A stretch of DNA of 59,686 nucleotides, from contig DATNNM010000001.1 in the NCBI GenBank assembly GCA_035601835.1, forward strand, positions 1 through 59,686, written 5' to 3'. The DNA is from Candidatus Tumulicola sp. Lineage in GTDB: Bacteria; Vulcanimicrobiota; Vulcanimicrobiia; Eremiobacterales; Eremiobacteraceae. The notes below the pieces were generated by a model, which saw nothing but the letters and a program-made list of their open reading frames with translations, had not been told where the DNA came from and ran no database searches. Made by a program: the position numbers and the translations under genes. Below are positions 38,233 through 49,182 of the stretch, piece after piece. Position 1 is the stretch's first letter; every line of letters starts with the position of its first letter.

Positions 38233-39351
38233 ATGTCATTCCTCTTTGATCCGTTTCGCCGGAGCCGAGCCGAACAAACGGCTTCGCCGGTGAACCCTCC
38301 CGCCTCCGAAGCCGAGTTACTTGCGAACGCGCTCGCCGATCGCTTCGACGCGCTGGTGGAGGCGCTTCCGGTGGGCGTCATCGTGGTCGGCGCCAAGGGG
38401 CAAGTGCGGGTCTTCAATCAGGCTGCCGCTGAGATTTTCGGCGTCGCCCGCGAGCGCGCGCTCGCGCGCTCGCTCATCGAGAGCGTGCGCAGCTTCGAAC
38501 TCGATCGCCGTTTGACGGCAGCTTTGCGCGACGGGACGGAACAGACCGCGGAACTCGAGTACGTGGCAGGCGTGGAACGTCGGATGGAGGTGACGACGCG
38601 CCCGCTGCGCAGCCCGAACGGACCGCGCGAGGCGGTCGCGGTCATCACCGACATCACCCGTGTCCGCGAACTGGAAGCGATCCGCCGAGATTTCGTGTCC
38701 AATGTCTCGCACGAGCTGCGCACTCCGCTGACCTCGGTGAAGATCATCGTCGAAACGCTGCAGGCCGGGGTCAACGCGGGTGTGCAGAAGGAATTTCTCG
38801 CGAACATCGCGCGCGAGACGGATCGCATGATCGCGCTGGTCGAGGATCTGCTGCGACTCGCCAAAATAGAAAGCGGCGCGATCGAGCGGCCTTTCGAGGC
38901 GGTGGACTTGGCCGAGCTGTGCCGCGAAGTCGTCGACATGCAAGCGCCGCGAGCTCTTGCTCTCAACGTCGACCTGCGCCTGATCGCGCCGCCGAATCCC
39001 GTCATCGTTTCGGGCGACCGAGACAAACTCGTCCAAGTCGTCGTCAACCTGCTCGACAACGCGTTGCGCATCGTGCCCAGCGGCGGCAAGATCGAGGTGG
39101 CGATCCACGGCGAGCCTCAATACGCGGAGCTCACCGTCGAAGACAATGGGCCCGGTATCCCGTCCGCGGCCCTGCCGCACATCTTCGAGCGGTTCTACGT
39201 CGTCGAGCGCTCGCGCTCGCGCGTCTCCGCGGGCACGGGTCTCGGCCTTGCGATCGTGAAACACATCATGGAGCAACATGGGGGCTCCGTCACAGCGGAG
39301 AGCGAGCTCGGAGTCGGCACGACCTTCCGCTGCCGCTTCAGGAAATCTTAA
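38233..39351 (+). CDS. phoR: PhoR-like sensor histidine kinase lacking membrane segments
   Basis: The 372-residue kinase has a PAS domain (about 35-135, VEALPVGVIVVGAKGQVRVFN), the HisKA dimerisation domain with His about 160 in NVSHELRTPLTS, and an HATPase domain with NLLDNAL (N box), DNGPGIP (G1) and GTGLGLAIVKH (G2). Unlike E. coli PhoR, the N-terminal 30 residues are polar (FRRSRAEQTASPVNPP) and contain no membrane helix, so the protein appears soluble. It probably reads phosphate status through PhoU and PstB. ATG 38233 follows the regulator closely. Its stop codon overlaps a single CTTAA half-site. Confidence 0.92.
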   Translation: MSFLFDPFRRSRAEQTASPVNPPASEAELLANALADRFDALVEALPVGVIVVGAKGQVRVFNQAAAEIFGVARERALARSLIESVRSFELDRRLTAALRDGTEQTAELEYVAGVERRMEVTTRPLRSPNGPREAVAVITDITRVRELEAIRRDFVSNVSHELRTPLTSVKIIVETLQAGVNAGVQKEFLANIARETDRMIALVEDLLRLAKIESGAIERPFEAVDLAELCREVVDMQAPRALALNVDLRLIAPPNPVIVSGDRDKLVQVVVNLLDNALRIVPSGGKIEVAIHGEPQYAELTVEDNGPGIPSAALPHIFERFYVVERSRSRVSAGTGLGLAIVKHIMEQHGGSVTAESELGVGTTFRCRFRKS

Positions 39352-39378: not shown

Positions 39379-39407
39379 TTTACAAACGGGCCGCACAGGC
39401 CTATAAT
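39379..39407 (+). promoter_or_regulatory. Sigma-70-type promoter for phoU
   Basis: TTTACA (39379-39384) and TATAAT (39402-39407) are separated by 17 bases, an almost perfect housekeeping promoter. Transcription would start near 39414, leaving a leader of about 70 bases that includes a type B repeat before the TTG of phoU. A CTTAA half-site at 39347 and a looser CGTAA ten bases on lie upstream of the -35. They may add weak phosphate control. Confidence 0.7.
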
Positions 39408-40229: not shown

Positions 40230-40267
40230 CTTAACCCGTTCTTAAGGCCGTCTTAACGTTGGGGTAA
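40230..40267 (+). promoter_or_regulatory. Pho box array upstream of pstS
   Basis: CTTAA occurs at 40230, 40241 and 40252, exactly 11 bp apart, and a weaker GGTAA follows at 40263 in the same register. Four direct half-sites on one helical face suit tandem PhoB dimers. The array lies 68 bases before the pstS GTG; a loose TACGGT at 40279-40284 could serve as the -10 element with PhoB replacing the -35. Confidence 0.8.
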
Positions 40268-40334
40268 GCCCACTGCGCTACGGTTGATTCAGGTCGCCGC
40301 GTCGCCACGCCCATCCCACAAGAGGAGCCCACTA

Positions 40335-41369
40335 GTGAAGCGCAAGACTTTCACGCGAAGCCTGGCCGCCGTCGCGGCGGTCAGCGTTCTCGCCCCCGTC
40401 GCCGCGTTGGCCGACATGCAATTCGTCGGCGCGGGCGCGACGTTTCCGACCCCGTTTTTCTCACGCGCGTTCTATGCGTACAGCCAAGACCACCCCGGCA
40501 TCACGGTCAACTACGCGAGCATCGGCTCGGGCGGCGGCATCGCTCAGCTCACTGCCAAGCTCGTCGACTTCGGCGCTTCCGACGTTCCGATGAACGCGAA
40601 GGAACTCGCCGCCGCCTGGGACGCCAACGGCAAGGTCATCCAACTGCCGGATACGCTCGGTGGGGAACCCATCGCCTATAATGCCCCGGGCCTTCCAAAA
40701 CACATCAGGCTGACCGAAAAAACGCTCGCCGACATCTTCCTCGGTCACGTGGCGAACTGGAACGACCCGTCGATCGCCGCCGTCAATCCTGGGGTCAAGT
40801 TCCCGAACCTGGCGATCCTCGTCGTACATCGCGCCGATGCGAGCGGTACCAGCTACCACTTCACGGACTACATGGCGAAGATCAGCTCTGAATGGAAGAC
40901 GAAGGTCGGCGTGGGCAAGACGGTCAACTGGCCGACCGGCGTCGGCGCCAAAGGCAACGAAGGCGTGGCCGGGCAGATCCAGAACTCGCCGGGCGCTGTC
41001 GGATACATCGAACTCGCCTACGCGCTGCAAAACGACATGGCGTACGTAGCGCTGCAGAACAAAGACGGCGCCTACGTCCTGCCGACGGTCGACACCATCA
41101 GAGCCGCTGCCGCGCAAAAGCCTAACGTCAATGCGGTTGATTTCTCGGTCACCGACATGGCGGGCAAGGACAGCTACGGGATATCGGGCTACTCGTGGAT
41201 CATGGTCTGGCAGAACCAAGCGGACCCGGCGAAGGGGCGGCAGCTTCAAGATCTCTTGAAGTGGCTCGTCACCTCGGGTCAACAATATGCGAAGAAGGTC
41301 CACTACGTCGCCCTCCCCGATAACGTCCAGCAGGAAGCGCTCAAGGCGATCGCCAGCATCCACACCTAA
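40335..41369 (+). CDS. pstS: Phosphate ABC transporter, substrate-binding protein PstS
   Basis: The 344-residue periplasmic protein captures phosphate for the PstCAB permease. It has a signal peptide (KRKTFTRSLAAVAAVSVLAPVAALA) and mature GAGATFPTPFFSRAF, YASIGSGGGIAQL and, in the second lobe, HRADASGTSYHFTDYM, which carry the phosphate-binding Ser, Asp, Arg and Thr residues of the family. GTG 40335 has AGAGGAG at ideal spacing; the longer frame from 40284 overlaps the Pho box region. No lipobox is seen. It is the first gene of the pst operon and lies under the Pho array. Confidence 0.96.
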   Translation: MKRKTFTRSLAAVAAVSVLAPVAALADMQFVGAGATFPTPFFSRAFYAYSQDHPGITVNYASIGSGGGIAQLTAKLVDFGASDVPMNAKELAAAWDANGKVIQLPDTLGGEPIAYNAPGLPKHIRLTEKTLADIFLGHVANWNDPSIAAVNPGVKFPNLAILVVHRADASGTSYHFTDYMAKISSEWKTKVGVGKTVNWPTGVGAKGNEGVAGQIQNSPGAVGYIELAYALQNDMAYVALQNKDGAYVLPTVDTIRAAAAQKPNVNAVDFSVTDMAGKDSYGISGYSWIMVWQNQADPAKGRQLQDLLKWLVTSGQQYAKKVHYVALPDNVQQEALKAIASIHT

Positions 41370-41396
41370 GCGTGCGCGGGACGCACGACGTCGAAG

Positions 41397-41437
41397 AGGC
41401 GGTGTTGGCCCAGGCGACAAACCTGGGCCCACCGCCT
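41397..41437 (+). promoter_or_regulatory. Long hairpin between pstS and pstC
   Basis: AGGCGGTG, TT, GGCCCAGG, a seven-base CGACAAA loop, then CCTGGGCC and CACCGCCT form 16 perfect pairs interrupted only by a two-base bulge. A smaller hairpin (CGTGCG with CGCACG) precedes it at 41371. No T-run follows. In many binding-protein operons such a hairpin protects the upstream mRNA or limits read-through, allowing far more binding protein than permease; that role is inferred here. Confidence 0.7.
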
Positions 41438-41458
41438 TACCTGACTTCAGCGGGGAGC

Positions 41459-42439
41459 ATGTCACAAGAAACCGTTGAACTCGCGAGCGCGACCGCCTCG
41501 AAAGTTCAGCGCACGCCGCATGTGCGGTCGTCCCCGTTGGGCGACCGGATATTCTCGATTCTCTTGTATGCGGCGGCGTGGATCGTGCTCGCGGTCGTCG
41601 TCGCGCTTTTCCTCGTGCTCCTCAAAGCCGCGATTCCCGCGATCCAGGCCACCGGCATCAAGCCATTGCTCAGTCAGGTCTGGAGTCCCAACGACGGACA
41701 GTTCGGCGTCCTGTCGTTCGTGTACGGCACGCTCGTCACGTCGATCATCGCGCTGGTGGTCGCCGGGCCTATCGGGATCGGCGCAGCGCTCTTCTTAGCG
41801 GAACTGGCCCCGCGTCGCTTAGCGACCCCAGTGGCCATGCTCGTCGAGTTGCTCGCCGCGGTGCCCAGTGTCGTGTACGGCGTGTGGGGGCTCTTCGCGC
41901 TCGCGCCGTTCATGCGCGTTTACATCGAGCCCGCGCTCGCCAAGACGTTCGGGTTCTTGCCGCTGTTCCAGGGGCCGATCTACGGCGTCGGCATGTTGAC
42001 CGGCGGCATCATCTTGGCCATCATGGTCGTTCCCACCGTCGCCGCGATCTCGCGTGACGTCTTCGAGGCAGTGCCCAACGAACAGCGCGAAGGCATGCTC
42101 GCGCTCGGCGCGACCAAGTGGGAGATGCTCACAAAGGCGGTGCTGCCATACGCGCGCTCCGGCGTCCTCGGCGCACTCGTGCTCGGCGTGGGACGCGCGC
42201 TCGGCGAAGCGATGGCCGTGGTCATGGTCATCGGCAACAAGCCCGCAATCGCGGCGTCGCTCTTCGCGCCCGGTTACACGATGGCAAGCGTGCTCGCCAA
42301 CGAATTCTCAGAAGCGACCGGCAAAGTCTACATCTCGATGCTGATCGAGATCGGACTGTTGCTCTTCGTCGTCAGCCTGATCGTCAACGTCGTCGCGCGG
42401 CTTTTGGTGTGGAGCGTCAGCCGGCGTGTGGGACGCTAG
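41459..42439 (+). CDS. pstC: Phosphate ABC transporter permease PstC
   Basis: The 326-residue inner-membrane permease has six to seven membrane segments. The coupling loop REGMLALGATKWEMLTKAVLP contacts PstB. GVGRALGEAMAV keeps the Arg and Glu known from E. coli PstC studies to matter for phosphate transport. FAPGYTMASVLANEF is another family block. ATG 41459 with GGGGAG is chosen; the frame extends to GTG 41372, but that would run through the intergenic hairpin. The pstA start follows after four bases. Confidence 0.95.
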   Translation: MSQETVELASATASKVQRTPHVRSSPLGDRIFSILLYAAAWIVLAVVVALFLVLLKAAIPAIQATGIKPLLSQVWSPNDGQFGVLSFVYGTLVTSIIALVVAGPIGIGAALFLAELAPRRLATPVAMLVELLAAVPSVVYGVWGLFALAPFMRVYIEPALAKTFGFLPLFQGPIYGVGMLTGGIILAIMVVPTVAAISRDVFEAVPNEQREGMLALGATKWEMLTKAVLPYARSGVLGALVLGVGRALGEAMAVVMVIGNKPAIAASLFAPGYTMASVLANEFSEATGKVYISMLIEIGLLLFVVSLIVNVVARLLVWSVSRRVGR

Positions 42440-42443
42440 CGCG

Positions 42444-43289
42444 ATGCTGAAATCGCTGCTCGTCCGCCGTTTCTGGAGCGCTTTCATGTCGGTCGTCGCG
42501 GCGTTGTGCGCCGGCCTTGCTGCCACCGTGCTCGCGCTCATCGTCGTGTTCGTCGTCACACGCGGAGCGAAGGCGCTCAATTGGGCGTTCTTCACGAAGT
42601 TGCCGATGCCGGTCGGCATGGAGGGCGGGGGCGTCGCCAACGCGATCGTGGGCAGCGGCGAGATCATCCTAATGGCGTCCCTGGCAGCGGTGCCCATCGG
42701 CGTGATCGCCGGCATCTACCTCGCGTTGTTCGGCCGGGGGCGCTTGGCCGCGTCGGTGCGCTTCTTCAGCGACGTGTTGACGGGCATGCCTTCCATCGCC
42801 ATCGGCGTGTTCGCGTATGCGCTGGTGGTGCTGCCCATCGGGAAATTCTCGGCGCTGTCCGCATCGGTCGCGTTGGCGGTGATCATGCTGCCGATCGTCG
42901 TGCGTACGACCGAGGAGGCCGTGCGCCTCGTCCCTTCGACGATCCGCGAAGGCGCGCTGGCTTTGGGATTGCCGGCTTGGAAAGCGACCATGATCGTCAC
43001 CGTGCCGAGCGCGCGCCCCGGCATCGTCACCGGCACCCTGCTCGCAGTCGCCCGCGTCGCGGGAGAGTCGGCGCCGCTGCTGTTCACGGCGTTCGGCAGC
43101 CAGTTCTGGGCCAAAACCGTGTTCGGGCCGACCGCCGCGCTGCCGCTGCTCATCTTCAACTACGCGATTTCACCCTACCCCGACTGGCAGCAGATCGCGT
43201 GGGGTTGCGCCTTCGTCCTCGTCGTGCTGGTGTTCGCGCTGAATCTCATCGCACGGCTTGCATTCTCGTCGCAGATCCACGCCCGCTAA
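42444..43289 (+). CDS. pstA: Phosphate ABC transporter permease PstA
   Basis: The 281-residue permease has six membrane segments and pairs with PstC. The coupling loop is IREGALALGLPAWKATMIVTVP, and ARVAGESAPLLFTAFGS retains the family Arg that is essential in E. coli PstA. FNYAISPYPDWQQIAWG closes the conserved C-terminal part. ATG 42444 is preferred over GTG 42426, which would overlap pstC. pstB begins 21 bases downstream. Confidence 0.95.
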   Translation: MLKSLLVRRFWSAFMSVVAALCAGLAATVLALIVVFVVTRGAKALNWAFFTKLPMPVGMEGGGVANAIVGSGEIILMASLAAVPIGVIAGIYLALFGRGRLAASVRFFSDVLTGMPSIAIGVFAYALVVLPIGKFSALSASVALAVIMLPIVVRTTEEAVRLVPSTIREGALALGLPAWKATMIVTVPSARPGIVTGTLLAVARVAGESAPLLFTAFGSQFWAKTVFGPTAALPLLIFNYAISPYPDWQQIAWGCAFVLVVLVFALNLIARLAFSSQIHAR

Positions 43290-43310
43290 GAAGTAAGGCA
43301 GGAACGCTCC

Positions 43311-44090
43311 GTGGCCACAACCGCAATCCAAACGAAATCCTTGAACGCCTACTACGGCCCGCATCTGGCGGTACGCGACGTCAATGTGGAGTTCCAGACG
43401 GGCGCCATCACCGCGCTCATCGGGCCGTCCGGTTGCGGCAAGACGACGCTGCTACGGTGCCTGAACCGCATGCACGAAGTCATCCCGAACGCGCGGGTCG
43501 AGGGCGAGGTGCTGCTCGACAACCAGAATCTCTATAGTCCGGGCGTCGACCCGACCGATACGCGCCGCCGTGTCGGCATGGTGTTCCAGCGAGCGAATCC
43601 GTTCCCGACGATGTCCATCTACGACAACGTGATAGCCGGCGTGAAACTGACCGGCAAGGTCCGCGGTCAAGCGGCGTTGCGGGAAGTGGCCGAGACCAGC
43701 TTGCAACGGGCGGCGCTATGGGACGAAGTGAAAGATAAACTGCAAGAGTCCGGATTGTCGCTATCCGGCGGTCAGCAGCAGCGTTTGTGCATCGCTCGCG
43801 CGCTCGCGGTCGAGCCGGAGGTGCTGCTCATGGACGAGCCGGCGTCTGCGCTGGATCCGATATCGACCACGAAGATCGAAGAGCTGATGCGCGAGCTCAA
43901 AGGCGCCTACACGATCATCATCGTCACCCATAACATGCAGCAAGCGGCGCGCGTGTCCGATTTCACCGGCTTCATGCTGGCCGGCGAGTCTGCGACCGGC
44001 GAACTCATCGAATTTGACGTCACGTCGAAGATGTTCACCACGCCGACAGACAAGCGTACGGAAGACTATATCACCGGCCGCTTCGGATAG
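43311..44090 (+). CDS. pstB: Phosphate ABC transporter ATPase PstB
   Basis: The 259-residue ATPase powers phosphate import. All catalytic motifs are intact: Walker [10 protein letters not shown]-loop [11 protein letters not shown] with its PstB-specific NPFP, signature [18 protein letters not shown], Walker [14 protein letters not shown] with catalytic Glu, and switch His in [13 protein letters not shown]. This makes it a useful reference for the degenerate copy at 45786. GTG 43311 puts the domain in normal register. A type B repeat follows 24 bases after the stop. Confidence 0.97.
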
Positions 44091-44114: not shown

Positions 44115-44148
44115 ATGTAGTGTTCCGAGCGAGCGAAGCGAGCTCGGA
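44115..44148 (+). repeat. Type B palindromic repeat (extended)
   Basis: ATGTAGTGTTCCGAGCGAGC followed by GAAGCGAGCTCGGA; CGAGC repeats pair with the GCTCG arm. This is the same long form as at 18878 but in the other orientation. It separates the canonical pstSCAB genes from the Pst-like paralog operon. Confidence 0.82.
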
Positions 44149-44194: not shown

Positions 44195-44986
44195 GTGGGT
44201 TTCTTCGAGCGCGCGTTTGTGTGGTTCGCACGATTGTGCGCATCGCTGGTGATCTGCATTCCCTGGCTGCTTGGCGCCGTGCTTGGCGCTGCGACGCTTG
44301 TCGCCATGGCGGGTTATTCGGCGCCCGAACGGTACACAGCGCTAGTACCTCTCGCGATCGCCACGATCGGCATCGGGCTCATCGCCACACTGATCGGCGC
44401 AACCGCGGGAACGGGCCTCGCCCTGCTGGCTCACGCGGTCGCGTCAGCGGGTACGCGCCGTCTGCTGCTCGTGATCGTCGGAATTCTTTCATCAACGCCG
44501 GCGATCGCAGTCGGTGTGGCCATGGTGGGGCTGCTCGCGTACTGGCACGGGGTCGCCGGAGCCGGACCGTTCGTTCCGGTGACGCTGGCGGTCGCGATCC
44601 TTGCGACGCCGCTCGCGAGCCGGCACGCGCTGCGGGAACTGGCGAAGTTACCGCCCGATCTGCGCCAAGCGGCCGCGGCAACCGGTGCTGATCCGGTGAG
44701 AATCGCCTTTAGCGCGATTTTTCCGGCGGCCCGACGCGGCATCGCGGCCGCATTCCTCGCGGCGTTCGCCGCCGCCATCGGCGAAGCAACAGCAGCGCAA
44801 GTCATCTTCGCCAACGTGCCTGACCCCAACGGCTCGGCCGGCCCCGCGACGCTCGCCGCTGTCGTGCTCGCCGGCGGCGCGGATGGGGTGGAGGCCGTAG
44901 CGCTCGCACCTGCGTGCCTGGTGCTCCTCGTCCTTGGGTTGATTCCGGTGATATTGAGCCGGGGCGTTGAGCGGAGCGCGTCGTGA
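44195..44986 (+). CDS. Degenerate PstC-like ABC permease
   Basis: The 263-residue protein has about six membrane segments and aligns by pattern with PstC from the second helix on. The coupling loop (LPPDLRQAAAATGADPVRIAFSAIFP) and the following AAAIGEATAAQVIF are recognisable. In the latter, the Arg of the PstC RALGE motif is Ala, while the Glu is kept. A PstC-type periplasmic region is much shorter (326 versus 263 residues). GTG 44195 is the likely start. The stop overlaps the next gene (GTGA). No substrate-binding protein gene precedes or follows. Transport of phosphate is doubtful; a regulatory role or another anion is possible. Confidence 0.75.
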   Translation: MGFFERAFVWFARLCASLVICIPWLLGAVLGAATLVAMAGYSAPERYTALVPLAIATIGIGLIATLIGATAGTGLALLAHAVASAGTRRLLLVIVGILSSTPAIAVGVAMVGLLAYWHGVAGAGPFVPVTLAVAILATPLASRHALRELAKLPPDLRQAAAATGADPVRIAFSAIFPAARRGIAAAFLAAFAAAIGEATAAQVIFANVPDPNGSAGPATLAAVVLAGGADGVEAVALAPACLVLLVLGLIPVILSRGVERSAS

Positions 44987-45789
44987 GCGCGAAAATGCCG
45001 CTCGCGGCTTTGTGGTCCTGCGCCGGGTTTTGCGTGGCGGCGCTGGCGCTCGTGGCCGCGGGCTTAGGCATCAACGGTTGGAATGACTTCCTTTGGGTGC
45101 TGCAGGCACCGGCCCCGGTGGGGATCTGGCTTGCGCTTGAAGCGTCGGCCGTCGTCTTGGCTATCGCACTGCCGGCGGTCGCGCTCCTGGGCTTCGCGGC
45201 CGCCGGCGCCGCGATCGATGCGAAGATCGGCGGATTCCTGGCCAAGTTCACGGAACCGGCGGCAGATTCGCGGATCGCCACGGCTTCGGTGGTGGTGGGC
45301 ACCGTCATCCTAATCGTGGTGGTCTCCGCCGGCTACCGGCCAGACATCCTCTCGGCGTCGCTCGCGCTGATCGTCGTCAATCTTCCGGCCATCACCGGCC
45401 GATTCGCGCGCGCCCTTCGCGCGGTATCGGTCGTCCGTCTCCAAGCCGCCGCCGCCACGGGCGCCGGTCCGGTCCACATCTTCTTTTTCGTGCTCGCGAG
45501 GGCAGCAGCCAAAGGCCTGGTCGCGGCGGTGCTCACCACGGCCGCCCAGATGCTCGGTGAAACCGCAGCGCTGGCCGTCGCTTCGCGCGCGGCGCTTGGA
45601 GGCTCGCATTTGAAAGCCAGCACGCTTGGGGCTTGGCCTCTCGCCGTCGATCTTTGGACGCGTGCGTCAGCTCACGCCGACTTGAGCGCTGTGTCAGCGG
45701 CGACGCTGATCCTCACCCTCATTATCTTGTTGTTGCGAAGCGTCGCGCATGCTCTGACCCCGCGCGCCGCGAATCCGAAACCAACATGA
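44983..45789 (+). CDS. Degenerate PstA-like ABC permease
   Basis: The 268-residue protein has six predicted membrane segments. The coupling loop SVVRLQAAAATGAGPVHIFFFVLAR and the next helix QMLGETAALAVASRA correspond to the PstA pattern, but the conserved Arg of ARVAGES is Gln and the SAPLLF stretch is changed. The frame also bears a 40-residue, less hydrophobic loop. GTG 44983 overlaps the first permease and the stop overlaps the ATPase start (ATGA), so the three are translated together. Identity as the PstA partner is inferred from order and motif position. Confidence 0.73.
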   Translation: MSAKMPLAALWSCAGFCVAALALVAAGLGINGWNDFLWVLQAPAPVGIWLALEASAVVLAIALPAVALLGFAAAGAAIDAKIGGFLAKFTEPAADSRIATASVVVGTVILIVVVSAGYRPDILSASLALIVVNLPAITGRFARALRAVSVVRLQAAAATGAGPVHIFFFVLARAAAKGLVAAVLTTAAQMLGETAALAVASRAALGGSHLKASTLGAWPLAVDLWTRASAHADLSAVSAATLILTLIILLLRSVAHALTPRAANPKPT

Positions 45790-46568
45790 AGGCGACGCTC
45801 GCCTGGACGGGCCCGAAAGTCGAACTGAGCGACGTGAGCGTGCGCTACGCTGAAGCCGTAGCCTTGAACAAAGCCTCTTTGAAAGTTCCGCACCGCACGA
45901 CCATCGCCCTGATCGGAGCGAGCGGCTGCGGCAAGACGACGCTGCTGCGGGCGATCAACCGCCTGCACGATCTCGACGAATCGGTTCGCATCAACGGCAG
46001 TGTGAAACTCGATGGGGTTGAGATGTTGGCGTCGGGCGTCGACGTGTATGCGTTGCGCCGTCGTGTCGGTATGATCTTCCCCCGCCCCACCGTCATGCCC
46101 GGCACGGTCGCTGACAACGCGGTGTTCGGCATGCGCGCGCAAGGCATTCGCGACCGACGGGAGCTCGAGGACGGCTGCGAGCGCGCGCTGCGCCGCACGC
46201 TCTTGTGGGAATATACTATCGCCAGCGGCTCGATGCTCAAGCCGGCGGACTCGCTGCCCATCGACCTCCAGCAGCGCTTGTGCATCGCGCGGGCGCTTGC
46301 GGTTGATCCCGAAGTGCTGTTGTTCGACGACCCGACTTTCGAATTAGACCCCATTGCGGCCGGTGGCATCGAAGACATCATCGCGCGCCTGCGGCGCGAT
46401 TGCACGGTGCTCTTGGCGACCAACGATCTGCAGCAAGCAGCGAGGCTCTCCGATGTCACGTGCTACATGGCGGGGGGCGAGATCATCGAGGCGGGGGACA
46501 CGCCGGTCCTTTTCAGCAGGCCCGCGAACGCGCGGACGGAAGACTTCCTCGCCGGTCGCGCATCGTAG
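45786..46568 (+). CDS. Degenerate PstB-like ABC ATPase
   Basis: The 260-residue protein is clearly related to PstB over its full length ([42 protein letters not shown]). Walker A GASGCGKT (44-51) is intact. Four other catalytic elements are altered: Q-loop Gln is Pro99 (IFPRPTVMPG), LSGGQ is LPIDL (157-161), the catalytic Glu after Walker B Asp181 is Asp182, and the switch His is Asn213 (LATNDLQQ). It may bind ATP but should hydrolyse it poorly. Such sites occur in one half of heterodimeric ABC proteins and in regulatory ABC proteins. The frame is undamaged, so this is not decay by frameshift. Confidence 0.85.
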   Translation: MKATLAWTGPKVELSDVSVRYAEAVALNKASLKVPHRTTIALIGASGCGKTTLLRAINRLHDLDESVRINGSVKLDGVEMLASGVDVYALRRRVGMIFPRPTVMPGTVADNAVFGMRAQGIRDRRELEDGCERALRRTLLWEYTIASGSMLKPADSLPIDLQQRLCIARALAVDPEVLLFDDPTFELDPIAAGGIEDIIARLRRDCTVLLATNDLQQAARLSDVTCYMAGGEIIEAGDTPVLFSRPANARTEDFLAGRAS

Positions 46569-46600: not shown

Positions 46601-48013
46601 ATGCCATTGAAGACCACGCTCGACGCCTCGACCATCCTCGGGCCGCTGCAGCCCGATGGCATGCATTACTACGATTCAGCGCTCGACGTCGTCGGGAACA
46701 CCCCGCTCGTGCGCCTCAAGCGCGTGATGGATGGCGCGAAGTGCACGGTGCTGGCCAAAATCGAGTTGGTGAATCCGGGCGGCTCGGTCAAAGATCGGCC
46801 CTCGCTCACGATGGTCGCCGATGCTGAAGAGCGCGGCTTGCTGCGCCCCGGCGGCACGATCGTCGAAGCGACCTCCGGCAACACCGGCACCGGGCTTGCC
46901 ATGGTGGCCGCCATCAAGGGCTACCGCTGCATCTTGGTCATGCCGGACAAAGTGAGTGAGGAAAAAATCAGACTGCTGCGCGCGTACGGCGCGGAGGTGG
47001 TGATCACGCCGACCAAAGTGCCCGCCAGCAGTCCGGAGTCGTATTACGGCGTCGCGGCCAAGCTGGCAAGTGAGATACCCGGCGCGTTTCAACCCAATCA
47101 ATTCGCGAACATGCTCAACCCGATGGCGCACGAGCGGACGACCGGTCCGGAGATCTGGCAGCAGACCGCGGGCAAGCTGACGCATTTCGTGAGCGGCATC
47201 GGCACCGGCGGGACCATCTCAGGAGTGGCGCACTACCTCAAGAAGCAAAACCCGCGCGTGCTGGTGGTGGGCGCTGACCCCGAAGGCTCTATTTATTCGG
47301 GCGACACGGCGAAATCGTATAAGGTCGAGGGCATCGGAGAAGACTTCTTGCCCGCGACCGTAGATCTGAAATCGATCGATCGCATCGAGCGGGTTTCCGA
47401 CAAAGAGTCGTTCCTTATGGCGCGGCGCATCTGCCGCGAAGAGGGTTTGCTGGTGGGCGGCTCCTCGGGAACCGCGGTGGTCGCCGCCGTGCGCGTCGCG
47501 CGCGAATTGCCGGCCGACGCGATCATGGTGGTGCTGCTTCCGGACAACGGTCGCGGGTATCTCTCGAAGATCTTCAACGACGAATGGATGCGCGCCAACG
47601 GTTTTCTCGGAGAGCACGGGCGCGCTGCGCGGGTGAGCGACGTGCTGGCCGCCAAGGGCGAGCTGCCCCCGATGATCACGCTATCACCCGAGGATCCGGT
47701 CAAGCGCGGCATCGAACTGATGCGGGAATTCCAGATCTCGCAGATCCCAATCGTCAATGCCGCCGGCGACATGGTCGGCAGCATCAACGAGGTCTCGGTC
47801 ATGCAGCTGATCTACGACCGCGCCGACGTCGCGCACGCCGCGGTCAAAGACGTCATGGCGCGTCCGTTTCCGGTGCTCGACGAGCTCGATGAGGTCGAAC
47901 GCGCTTTCAAGGAGCTTTCGCTCGGCCACGCGGCTGTGGTCGTCGCGCGCAAGGGGCACCCCATCGGCGTGCTCACCAAGATGGACATCATCTCGTACCT
48001 CTCGGCGAATTAG
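46601..48013 (+). CDS. Cystathionine beta-synthase with CBS domains
   Basis: The 470-residue PLP enzyme condenses homocysteine with serine (or another activated serine) to cystathionine. The PLP lysine is Lys64 in GGSVKDRPS, the phosphate loop is TSGNTGTG, and GIGTGGTISG is also seen. Residues about 345-470 form two CBS domains (VKRGIELMREFQISQIPIVN and VVVARKGHPIGVLTKMDI), as in eukaryotic CBS and some bacterial homologs; they may sense adenosyl compounds. ATG 46601 follows GGAAAAGGA. The next gene supplies the lyase, giving a complete reverse transsulfuration pair. Confidence 0.92.
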   Translation: MPLKTTLDASTILGPLQPDGMHYYDSALDVVGNTPLVRLKRVMDGAKCTVLAKIELVNPGGSVKDRPSLTMVADAEERGLLRPGGTIVEATSGNTGTGLAMVAAIKGYRCILVMPDKVSEEKIRLLRAYGAEVVITPTKVPASSPESYYGVAAKLASEIPGAFQPNQFANMLNPMAHERTTGPEIWQQTAGKLTHFVSGIGTGGTISGVAHYLKKQNPRVLVVGADPEGSIYSGDTAKSYKVEGIGEDFLPATVDLKSIDRIERVSDKESFLMARRICREEGLLVGGSSGTAVVAAVRVARELPADAIMVVLLPDNGRGYLSKIFNDEWMRANGFLGEHGRAARVSDVLAAKGELPPMITLSPEDPVKRGIELMREFQISQIPIVNAAGDMVGSINEVSVMQLIYDRADVAHAAVKDVMARPFPVLDELDEVERAFKELSLGHAAVVVARKGHPIGVLTKMDIISYLSAN

Positions 48014-48021
48014 AGGATCGC

Positions 48022-49182
48022 ATGGACTTTGCTACGCGGGCCATACATGTCGGGCAAGAATCCGATCCGACGACCGGCGCGACCATCGTGCCGATCTACC
48101 AGACGTCGACCTACACGCAATCCGCGCCGGGCGTCCACAAAGGCTTTGATTACTCCAGGACCGTGAATCCGACGCGCGTCGCGCTCGAGCGCTGCTTGGC
48201 GTCGCTCGAGAACGCGCAGTTCGGGCTGTGTTTCGCAAGCGGCATGGCCGCCACGGCGGCGGTGATGAACATCCTTTCGCAAGGCGATCACGTGATCGTC
48301 AGCGATGACTTGTACGGCGGCACGTTCCGGCTTTTCGACAAGGTGCTCGCGCGTTATGGTCTGACGTTCACCTATGTCGACGCGACCGACGTGCGCAACG
48401 TCGAGTCGGCGATGCGCGCTTCGACGCGCATGGTCTGGCTCGAAACGCCGACCAACCCGCTGCTGCGTCTGGCCGATATCGGCGCCATCGCGGCCGGCTG
48501 CCGCAAGCACGGCGTGCTGCTGGCGGTGGACAACACGTTCGCGACGCCGTATCTGCAGACGCCGCTGGATCTCGGGGCTGATCTCGTGGTCCATTCGACG
48601 ACCAAATATATCGGCGGCCATTCGGACGCAGTGGGGGGTTTCGTCGCCTCCAACAAAAAGGAGCTGCACGACATCGTCAAGTTCCATCAGAACGCGGTCG
48701 GCGGCGTGCCTGGCCCGTTCGATTGCTTCTTGGTGCTGCGCGGCGTCAAGACGCTCGAGATCCGCATGCGCGAGCACGAACGCAACGCGCGGGCGGTGGT
48801 GGCGTACTTGGACGGCCATGCCGACGTCGCGCGCGTGTATTATCCCGGTTTGCCGGCACATCCGCAGCACGAGCTCGCGCAGCGCCAGATGCGTGGTTTC
48901 GGGGGCATGGTGTCCGCCGTGCTCAAAGGCGGACCGGAACGGGCGCGCGCGTTCGCATCGCAGACGAAGCTCTTCGCGCTCGCCGAGAGCCTGGGCGGCG
49001 TCGAGTCGCTAGTCTGTCACCCCGCGTCGATGACGCATGGTTCGATTCCGAAGGAAGTGCGCGAAGCGCGCGGCGTGACCGAAGGGCTGTTGCGCTTCTC
49101 CGTTGGGATCGAGTCGGCGACCGATCTCGTCGCCGACATCGAGCATGCGCTCGCCGCGACCCGCTCCCTCGCCCCCGTCTAA
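48022..49182 (+). CDS. Cystathionine gamma-lyase / gamma-synthase
   Basis: The 386-residue PLP enzyme belongs to the Cys/Met metabolism family. The PLP lysine is about Lys195 in VHSTTKYIGGHSD, and the family blocks YSRTVNPTR, LCFASGMAAT and LETPTNPLLRL are present. After a CBS gene, gamma-lyase activity (cystathionine to cysteine, 2-oxobutyrate and ammonia) is the more likely role, but gamma-synthase cannot be excluded from sequence alone. It starts eight bases after the cbs stop, so the two are surely one operon. Confidence 0.93.
   Translation: MDFATRAIHVGQESDPTTGATIVPIYQTSTYTQSAPGVHKGFDYSRTVNPTRVALERCLASLENAQFGLCFASGMAATAAVMNILSQGDHVIVSDDLYGGTFRLFDKVLARYGLTFTYVDATDVRNVESAMRASTRMVWLETPTNPLLRLADIGAIAAGCRKHGVLLAVDNTFATPYLQTPLDLGADLVVHSTTKYIGGHSDAVGGFVASNKKELHDIVKFHQNAVGGVPGPFDCFLVLRGVKTLEIRMREHERNARAVVAYLDGHADVARVYYPGLPAHPQHELAQRQMRGFGGMVSAVLKGGPERARAFASQTKLFALAESLGGVESLVCHPASMTHGSIPKEVREARGVTEGLLRFSVGIESATDLVADIEHALAATRSLAPV

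Follow-up and report, generated by a model that had tools for sequence, protein, structure and literature searches.

The window, the whole stretch of 59,686 nucleotides that was analyzed, contains on one strand the gene order phoB-phoR-phoU-pstS-pstC-pstA-pstB, followed by three further genes which we designate X1, X2 and X3. The pstS-pstC-pstA-pstB genes (positions 40284–44090, + strand) encode a normal and complete importer, all products of which score above the main NCBIfam cut-offs. X1 (44195–44986, +) codes for a PstC-like permease of 263 amino acids, X2 (44983–45789, +) for a PstA-like permease of 268 amino acids, and X3 (45786–46568, +) for a PstB-like ATPase of 260 amino acids with degenerate catalytic motifs. 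The three genes overlap by 4 bp each, with GTGA at the X1/X2 and ATGA at the X2/X3 junction; the start codon of X3 is likely ATG 45786, and the TTG at 45633 given in the open reading frame listing is likely not the real start. Coordinates and family matches agree with a sequence-only reading of the locus, which had placed overlapping PstC-, PstA- and PstB-like genes directly downstream of pstSCAB.

X1 shows only weak matches to PstC/PstA models (TIGR02138, E 4e-11; Pfam BPD_transp_1, E 5e-11). A Pfam search with X2 returned no match, its family match being the PstA model TIGR00974 (E 2e-12), while X3 matches TIGR00972 with an E value of 7e-75. All three proteins remain below the respective NCBIfam cut-offs, scoring 42, 47 and 252 bits against thresholds of 196, 193 and 343 bits; the genuine PstB of the window reaches 372 bits against TIGR00972, above the cut-off of 343. 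Single-sequence AlphaFold models of X2 and X3 (mean pLDDT 48 and 32, respectively) were unusable.

The genome from which the window derives (2.57 Mb, 97.9% complete) encodes no PstS or PBP_like_2 protein beyond the product of the normal pstS. The earlier statement that the trio has no binding protein thus holds for this genome, but not for three relatives (G002, G011 and G012), the only ones with a second PstS gene just upstream of the block. The PhoR protein (38233–39351) consists of PAS, HisKA and HATPase domains, and no transmembrane segment was seen in it, in line with its previous description as soluble. Downstream of X3, a cystathionine-beta-synthase-like and a cystathionine-gamma-lyase-like gene (46602–49182; names read from the sequence) form a pair related to sulphur metabolism, which is present behind X3 in every relative whose contig extends far enough.

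Catalytic motifs of X3 and conservation of the trio

The Walker A motif of X3, GASGCGKT (45915–45938, +), is intact. At the Q-loop, the conserved Gln is replaced by Pro (46080–46082, +), the LSGGQ signature by LPIDL (46254–46268, +), the catalytic Glu by Asp (46329–46331, +), and the switch His by Asn (46422–46424, +). All four replacements, as well as the intact Walker A motif, had been named in the sequence-only reading and are confirmed in the sequence. As to whether the altered residues are conserved among orthologs, a check which that reading had proposed, the answer differs between motifs. The Q-loop Gln occurs in 0/14 X3 proteins, compared with 61/61 PstB and PstB2 proteins, and both signature glycines are absent from all 14, with an acidic residue (Asp or Glu) in place of the second in 13. 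The catalytic position is occupied by Asp in 11 orthologs and by the original Glu in three, and the switch position by Asn in 12, Gly in one and His in one. Walker A retains its Lys in 12 of the 14 proteins, whereas the X3 proteins of G011 and G012 (L047, 9636–10370, and L048, 6289–7020) have exchanged even this residue for Arg. The Walker B Asp is kept in 14/14 and the D-loop Asp in 13/14 X3 proteins, and both are present in that of the window. The 61 ordinary PstB and PstB2 proteins used for comparison were drawn from the same order, from sister families and from another class of the phylum, and were invariant at the motif positions (61/61). Since none of these 61 proteins is changed, and all 14 X3 proteins lack the Q-loop Gln and both signature glycines, the motif loss in X3 is far beyond chance. 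Literature searches yielded no description of a degenerate PstB.

Judged from its residues, X3 has lost what hydrolysis and closure of the ATP sandwich require, while the parts for binding ATP and magnesium are mostly kept. In the known geometry of ABC dimers, the position of the second signature Gly faces the gamma-phosphate of ATP; the acidic residue found at this position of X3 would likewise face it.

The order was sampled through 14 genomes, comprising that of the window and 13 relatives, which represent nine genera of one family. X3 is present in 14/14 genomes, the proteins of the 13 relatives being 50–63% identical to that of the window, and in every case X1 and X2 are intact open frames upstream of X3, with the same two genes behind it. 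The three-gene set, for which the sequence-only reading had proposed a search of related genomes, is thus present throughout, and the gene order phoB-phoR-phoU-pstSCAB-(extra genes)-X1-X2-X3 is kept wherever contigs extend that far. Depending on the genome, the extra genes between pstSCAB and X1 encode a second PstS, an OprD-like porin, or else a PF04185 phosphoesterase, a TonB-dependent receptor or both of these; X1 directly follows pstB in the window and in G013.

The two most closely related pairs, G011/G012 and G003/G004, gave dN/dS values (NG86) of 0.036 and 0.069 for X3, 0.090 and 0.105 for X1, and 0.079 and 0.093 for X2, respectively, as compared with 0.033–0.121 for PstS, PstC, PstA and PstB in the same pairs. 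In the G011/G012 pair, in which Walker A carries Arg, X3 is the most constrained of the genes measured. Wider pairs gave 0.11–0.15 for X3 and 0.20–0.40 for X1 and X2, which in these comparisons evolve faster than pstSCAB and are among the fastest genes of the locus. The X1-X2-X3 operon is functional and under purifying selection; the values of 0.036–0.105 in the closest pairs put a measurement in place of what had been assumed before. The operon apparently does its work without hydrolysing ATP.

Kinship with the Pst2 lineage

A search of the phylum with an X3 profile led to a sister family in the same class: of its roughly 100 genomes, most returned matches of 280–319 bits, compared with about 245–275 bits for canonical PstB proteins. 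These top matches represent a second PstB (PstB2), whose catalytic motifs, unlike those of X3, are intact in all members examined, and which occurs behind phoB-phoR alone, in the arrangement phoB-phoR-pstC2-pstA2-pstB2-porin-pstS2, or in tandem behind pstSCAB. A maximum-likelihood tree comprising 75 proteins splits canonical PstB from X3 plus PstB2 with a support of 100/97 and shows X3 as a single clade (100/100); the tree is midpoint-rooted, and is compatible with X3 being either sister to PstB2 or nested within it. In each of the 14 genomes, X1, X2 and X3 obtain better scores with Pst2 models than with canonical models, by weak margins for some X2 proteins. The PstC2 and PstA2 models draw on a smaller and more varied set of sequences than their canonical counterparts, which may favor Pst2 scores somewhat. 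The tree is the firmer evidence of kinship. In addition, homologous porins are encoded at both loci, upstream of X1 in G002 and behind pstB2 in the sister family, the two being 29% identical (E 8e-30). Based on the tree, the scores and the shared porin, the trio is best read as a degenerate Pst2 system (PstC2-PstA2-PstB2), separate in origin from the neighboring pst operon. Tree and profile scores rule out a recent duplication of the neighboring pstB as the source of X3.

Outside the phylum, a pattern-based scan of contigs with X3 recovered only other ABC proteins with 24–38% identity. In a number of sister-family loci (L097, L108, L117–L121, L123, L125, L126, L133–L135), a lone intact PstB2 is encoded directly behind phoB-phoR, with no permease genes nearby. 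Some of these loci have their own PhoB-box-like site; an ATPase lacking a transporter beside a sensor kinase is an odd arrangement.

Regulatory sequences and permease residues

A PhoB-box-like triple CTTAA repeat with 11-bp spacing is located upstream of pstS (40230–40256, +). It is the sole such site in the window, the reversed sequence containing none, and lies 3.9 kb upstream of X1; directly upstream of X1, the window has no PhoB box. Within the 104 bp that separate pstB from X1, no promoter-like site was seen, so transcription of the trio in the window probably starts at the pst promoter. No terminator was recognized on the + strand of this gap, and a stable RNA hairpin was unsupported (z -0.95). 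In relatives, PhoB-box-like repeats occur upstream of pstS and upstream of the block which ends in X1-X2-X3 (G002, G006, G010), with no match in reversed sequences; in G001, the site is several kb upstream of X1, with genes of the opposite strand in between. Sister-family loci carry the CTTAA repeat upstream of pstC2, of the lone pstB2, of pstS and of the porin gene, amounting to 68 matches (overlaps counted) versus 0 in reversed sequence. CTTAA at 11-bp spacing is a clear PhoB-box-like form in this class (window; L041, L043, L045, L046, L097–L136).

The pstB-X1 gap also contains a palindrome, TTCCGAGC...GCTCGGA (44123–44148, +), which belongs to a small repeat family with five matches as against 0.02 expected. 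Its copies at 2557, 18878, 39443 and 44123 of the window are intergenic-looking, and two of them are located upstream of phoU and of X1. A near-consensus sigma-70 promoter, TTTACA-17-TATAAT, precedes phoU (39379–39407) and is kept in most relatives of the order, suggesting that phoU is probably expressed independently of pstSCAB.

Two arginines of the E. coli permeases were located in X1 and X2 through an alignment with PDB 9k3s and subsequent ortholog alignments. At the position of PstA Arg220, X2 of the window has Gln (45547–45549, +), as do eight of the 14 orthologs in total, with Gly in one and Arg in five. At the position of PstC Arg237, X1 of the window has Ala (44771–44773, +) and three relatives have Leu, Arg being kept in 10/14. 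In E. coli, the PstA R220Q and PstC R237Q exchanges block uptake and leave signalling unaffected, whereas the signature mutant PstB Q160K does not take up phosphate and gives a permanent phosphate-replete signal, the opposite of the signal of PstB E179Q (PMC5775613). The trio resembles the R220Q, R237Q and Q160K mutants in having Gln at position 220 of X2, in the absence of Arg237 from X1 of the window, and in the loss of the X3 signature. However, the signalling-only variants of E. coli are laboratory point mutants of the sole Pst system, while the trio would be a separate natural complex beside a working Pst. Both the transport-arginine loss in many orthologs and the PhoB-box-like sites in relatives appear to strengthen the tie of the trio to phosphate regulation.

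The EAA coupling loops of X1 and X2 are recognizable, and the segment of X3 which faces these loops is well conserved, suggesting that the three proteins likely form a docked complex. The trio shares with E. coli PstSCAB (PDB 9k3s/9k3x/9k3y) the permease-permease-ATPase order, homologous subunits, the Pho locus, the coupling loops and the PstB C-terminal motif. It differs in that no dedicated PstS is encoded in the genome of the window, in that the permease similarity is weak and below cut-offs, and in that X3 is devoid of the Q-loop Gln, LSGGQ, the catalytic Glu and the switch His. Similarity to PstC2-PstA2-PstB2 of the sister family is closer, extending to top profile scores, tree position, PhoB-box-like sites and an adjoining porin.

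Possible function of the trio

We tentatively favor the reading, for which we would claim something short of even confidence, that the trio is an order-wide descendant of Pst2 which has lost ATP-driven transport and is kept as a Pho-linked, non-hydrolysing regulatory complex. With Walker A and the Walker B Asp retained, X3 is probably able to bind ATP. Having no signature, it would not close on the opposite ATP, while its permease-docking surface is retained, and the complex might rest in or near the inward-facing state. In E. coli, the inward-facing state of Pst signals plentiful phosphate to PhoR. The complex of the trio could then act as a platform at which PhoU and the anchorless PhoR dock and a set point is defined, biasing or tuning both; a PhoR without a transmembrane segment would need a membrane partner in order to sense the state of a transporter. 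PhoU is known to bind both PstB and PhoR (PMC4423584). The stronger version of this reading, namely that transport has been abandoned and that the trio, purely through its conformation, informs PhoU and a soluble PhoR of the state of phosphate or ATP, is possible but rather doubtful. Out of line with a regulatory role are the retention of Arg220 in 5/14 and of Arg237 in 10/14 orthologs, the catalytic Glu kept in 3/14, and the adjacent second PstS in three genomes. The faster evolution of X1 and X2 relative to pstSCAB in wider comparisons and the lack of a PhoB box ahead of X1 in the window likewise count against it.

Pairing of X3 with the intact PstB, as had been suggested before, would generate an ATPase of mixed composition, seated on X1/X2 or PstC/PstA, and hence an asymmetric or throttled phosphate importer. 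The pstB gene is located directly upstream in the same direction, and the sister family has PstB and PstB2 in tandem behind pstSCA. The arrangement is also reminiscent of the tandem PstB1/PstB2 of Firmicutes such as E. faecalis, where two PstB paralogs of one pho locus probably have different roles; both of these tandem genes are in use, with unequal roles, and their products resemble verified PstB ATPases and serve one permease pair (PMC12096839). X3, however, is disarmed and has its own permease pair, which is kept in 14/14 genomes. Because X3 is devoid of signature and catalytic residues, residue logic predicts that a PstB:X3 dimer would have one site without a signature and another without catalytic residues, neither being canonical. 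The proposal is weakened thereby, and we regard it as unlikely. In heterodimeric ABC exporters such as TmrAB, TM287/288 and ABCC1, catalytic and signature residues have been lost from a nucleotide-binding domain as in X3, resulting in one degenerate and one working ATP site (PMC7756269); X3, in contrast, is of the importer type and, by the same logic, would have no canonical site either alone or with PstB.

It also seems improbable that the trio, together with PstS or a second PstS, does import phosphate or a phosphorus compound, if only slowly. The second PstS adjoining the block in G002, G011 and G012, the neighboring porin, TonB-dependent receptor and phosphoesterase genes of relatives, and the transport arginines retained in some orthologs would fit such a role; nevertheless, the Q-loop Gln and the signature, which couple ATP to transport, are uniformly lost, and the genome of the window has a single PstS. 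Even less can be said for a brake, in which X3 or the X1/X2 subunits enter the PstC/PstA/PstB complex and damp it while the Pho regulon is active: the subunits are homologous and share a locus and, in the window, probably a transcript, but conservation of the full permease pair suggests a separate complex, and the sequences are distant from PstC and PstA. Functionless, decaying gene copies were rejected as highly improbable, since the fast evolution of X1 and X2 in wider comparisons and the variation between genera in the set of lost catalytic residues are outweighed by frames intact in 14/14 genomes, dN/dS values of X1, X2 and X3 that are far smaller than 1, and the recurrence of specific replacements.

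Whether Pst signals by flux, by conformation or through PhoU docking is an old question, for which point mutants have so far been the main tool. An order in which a disarmed Pst has been kept next to a working one offers a natural case of separation of function. The trio also represents an unusual ABC system, being of the importer type with neither ATP site expected to be canonical, alone or paired with the neighboring PstB. If the trio reports by conformation alone, nature would here have separated two jobs which the Pst system of E. coli performs together.
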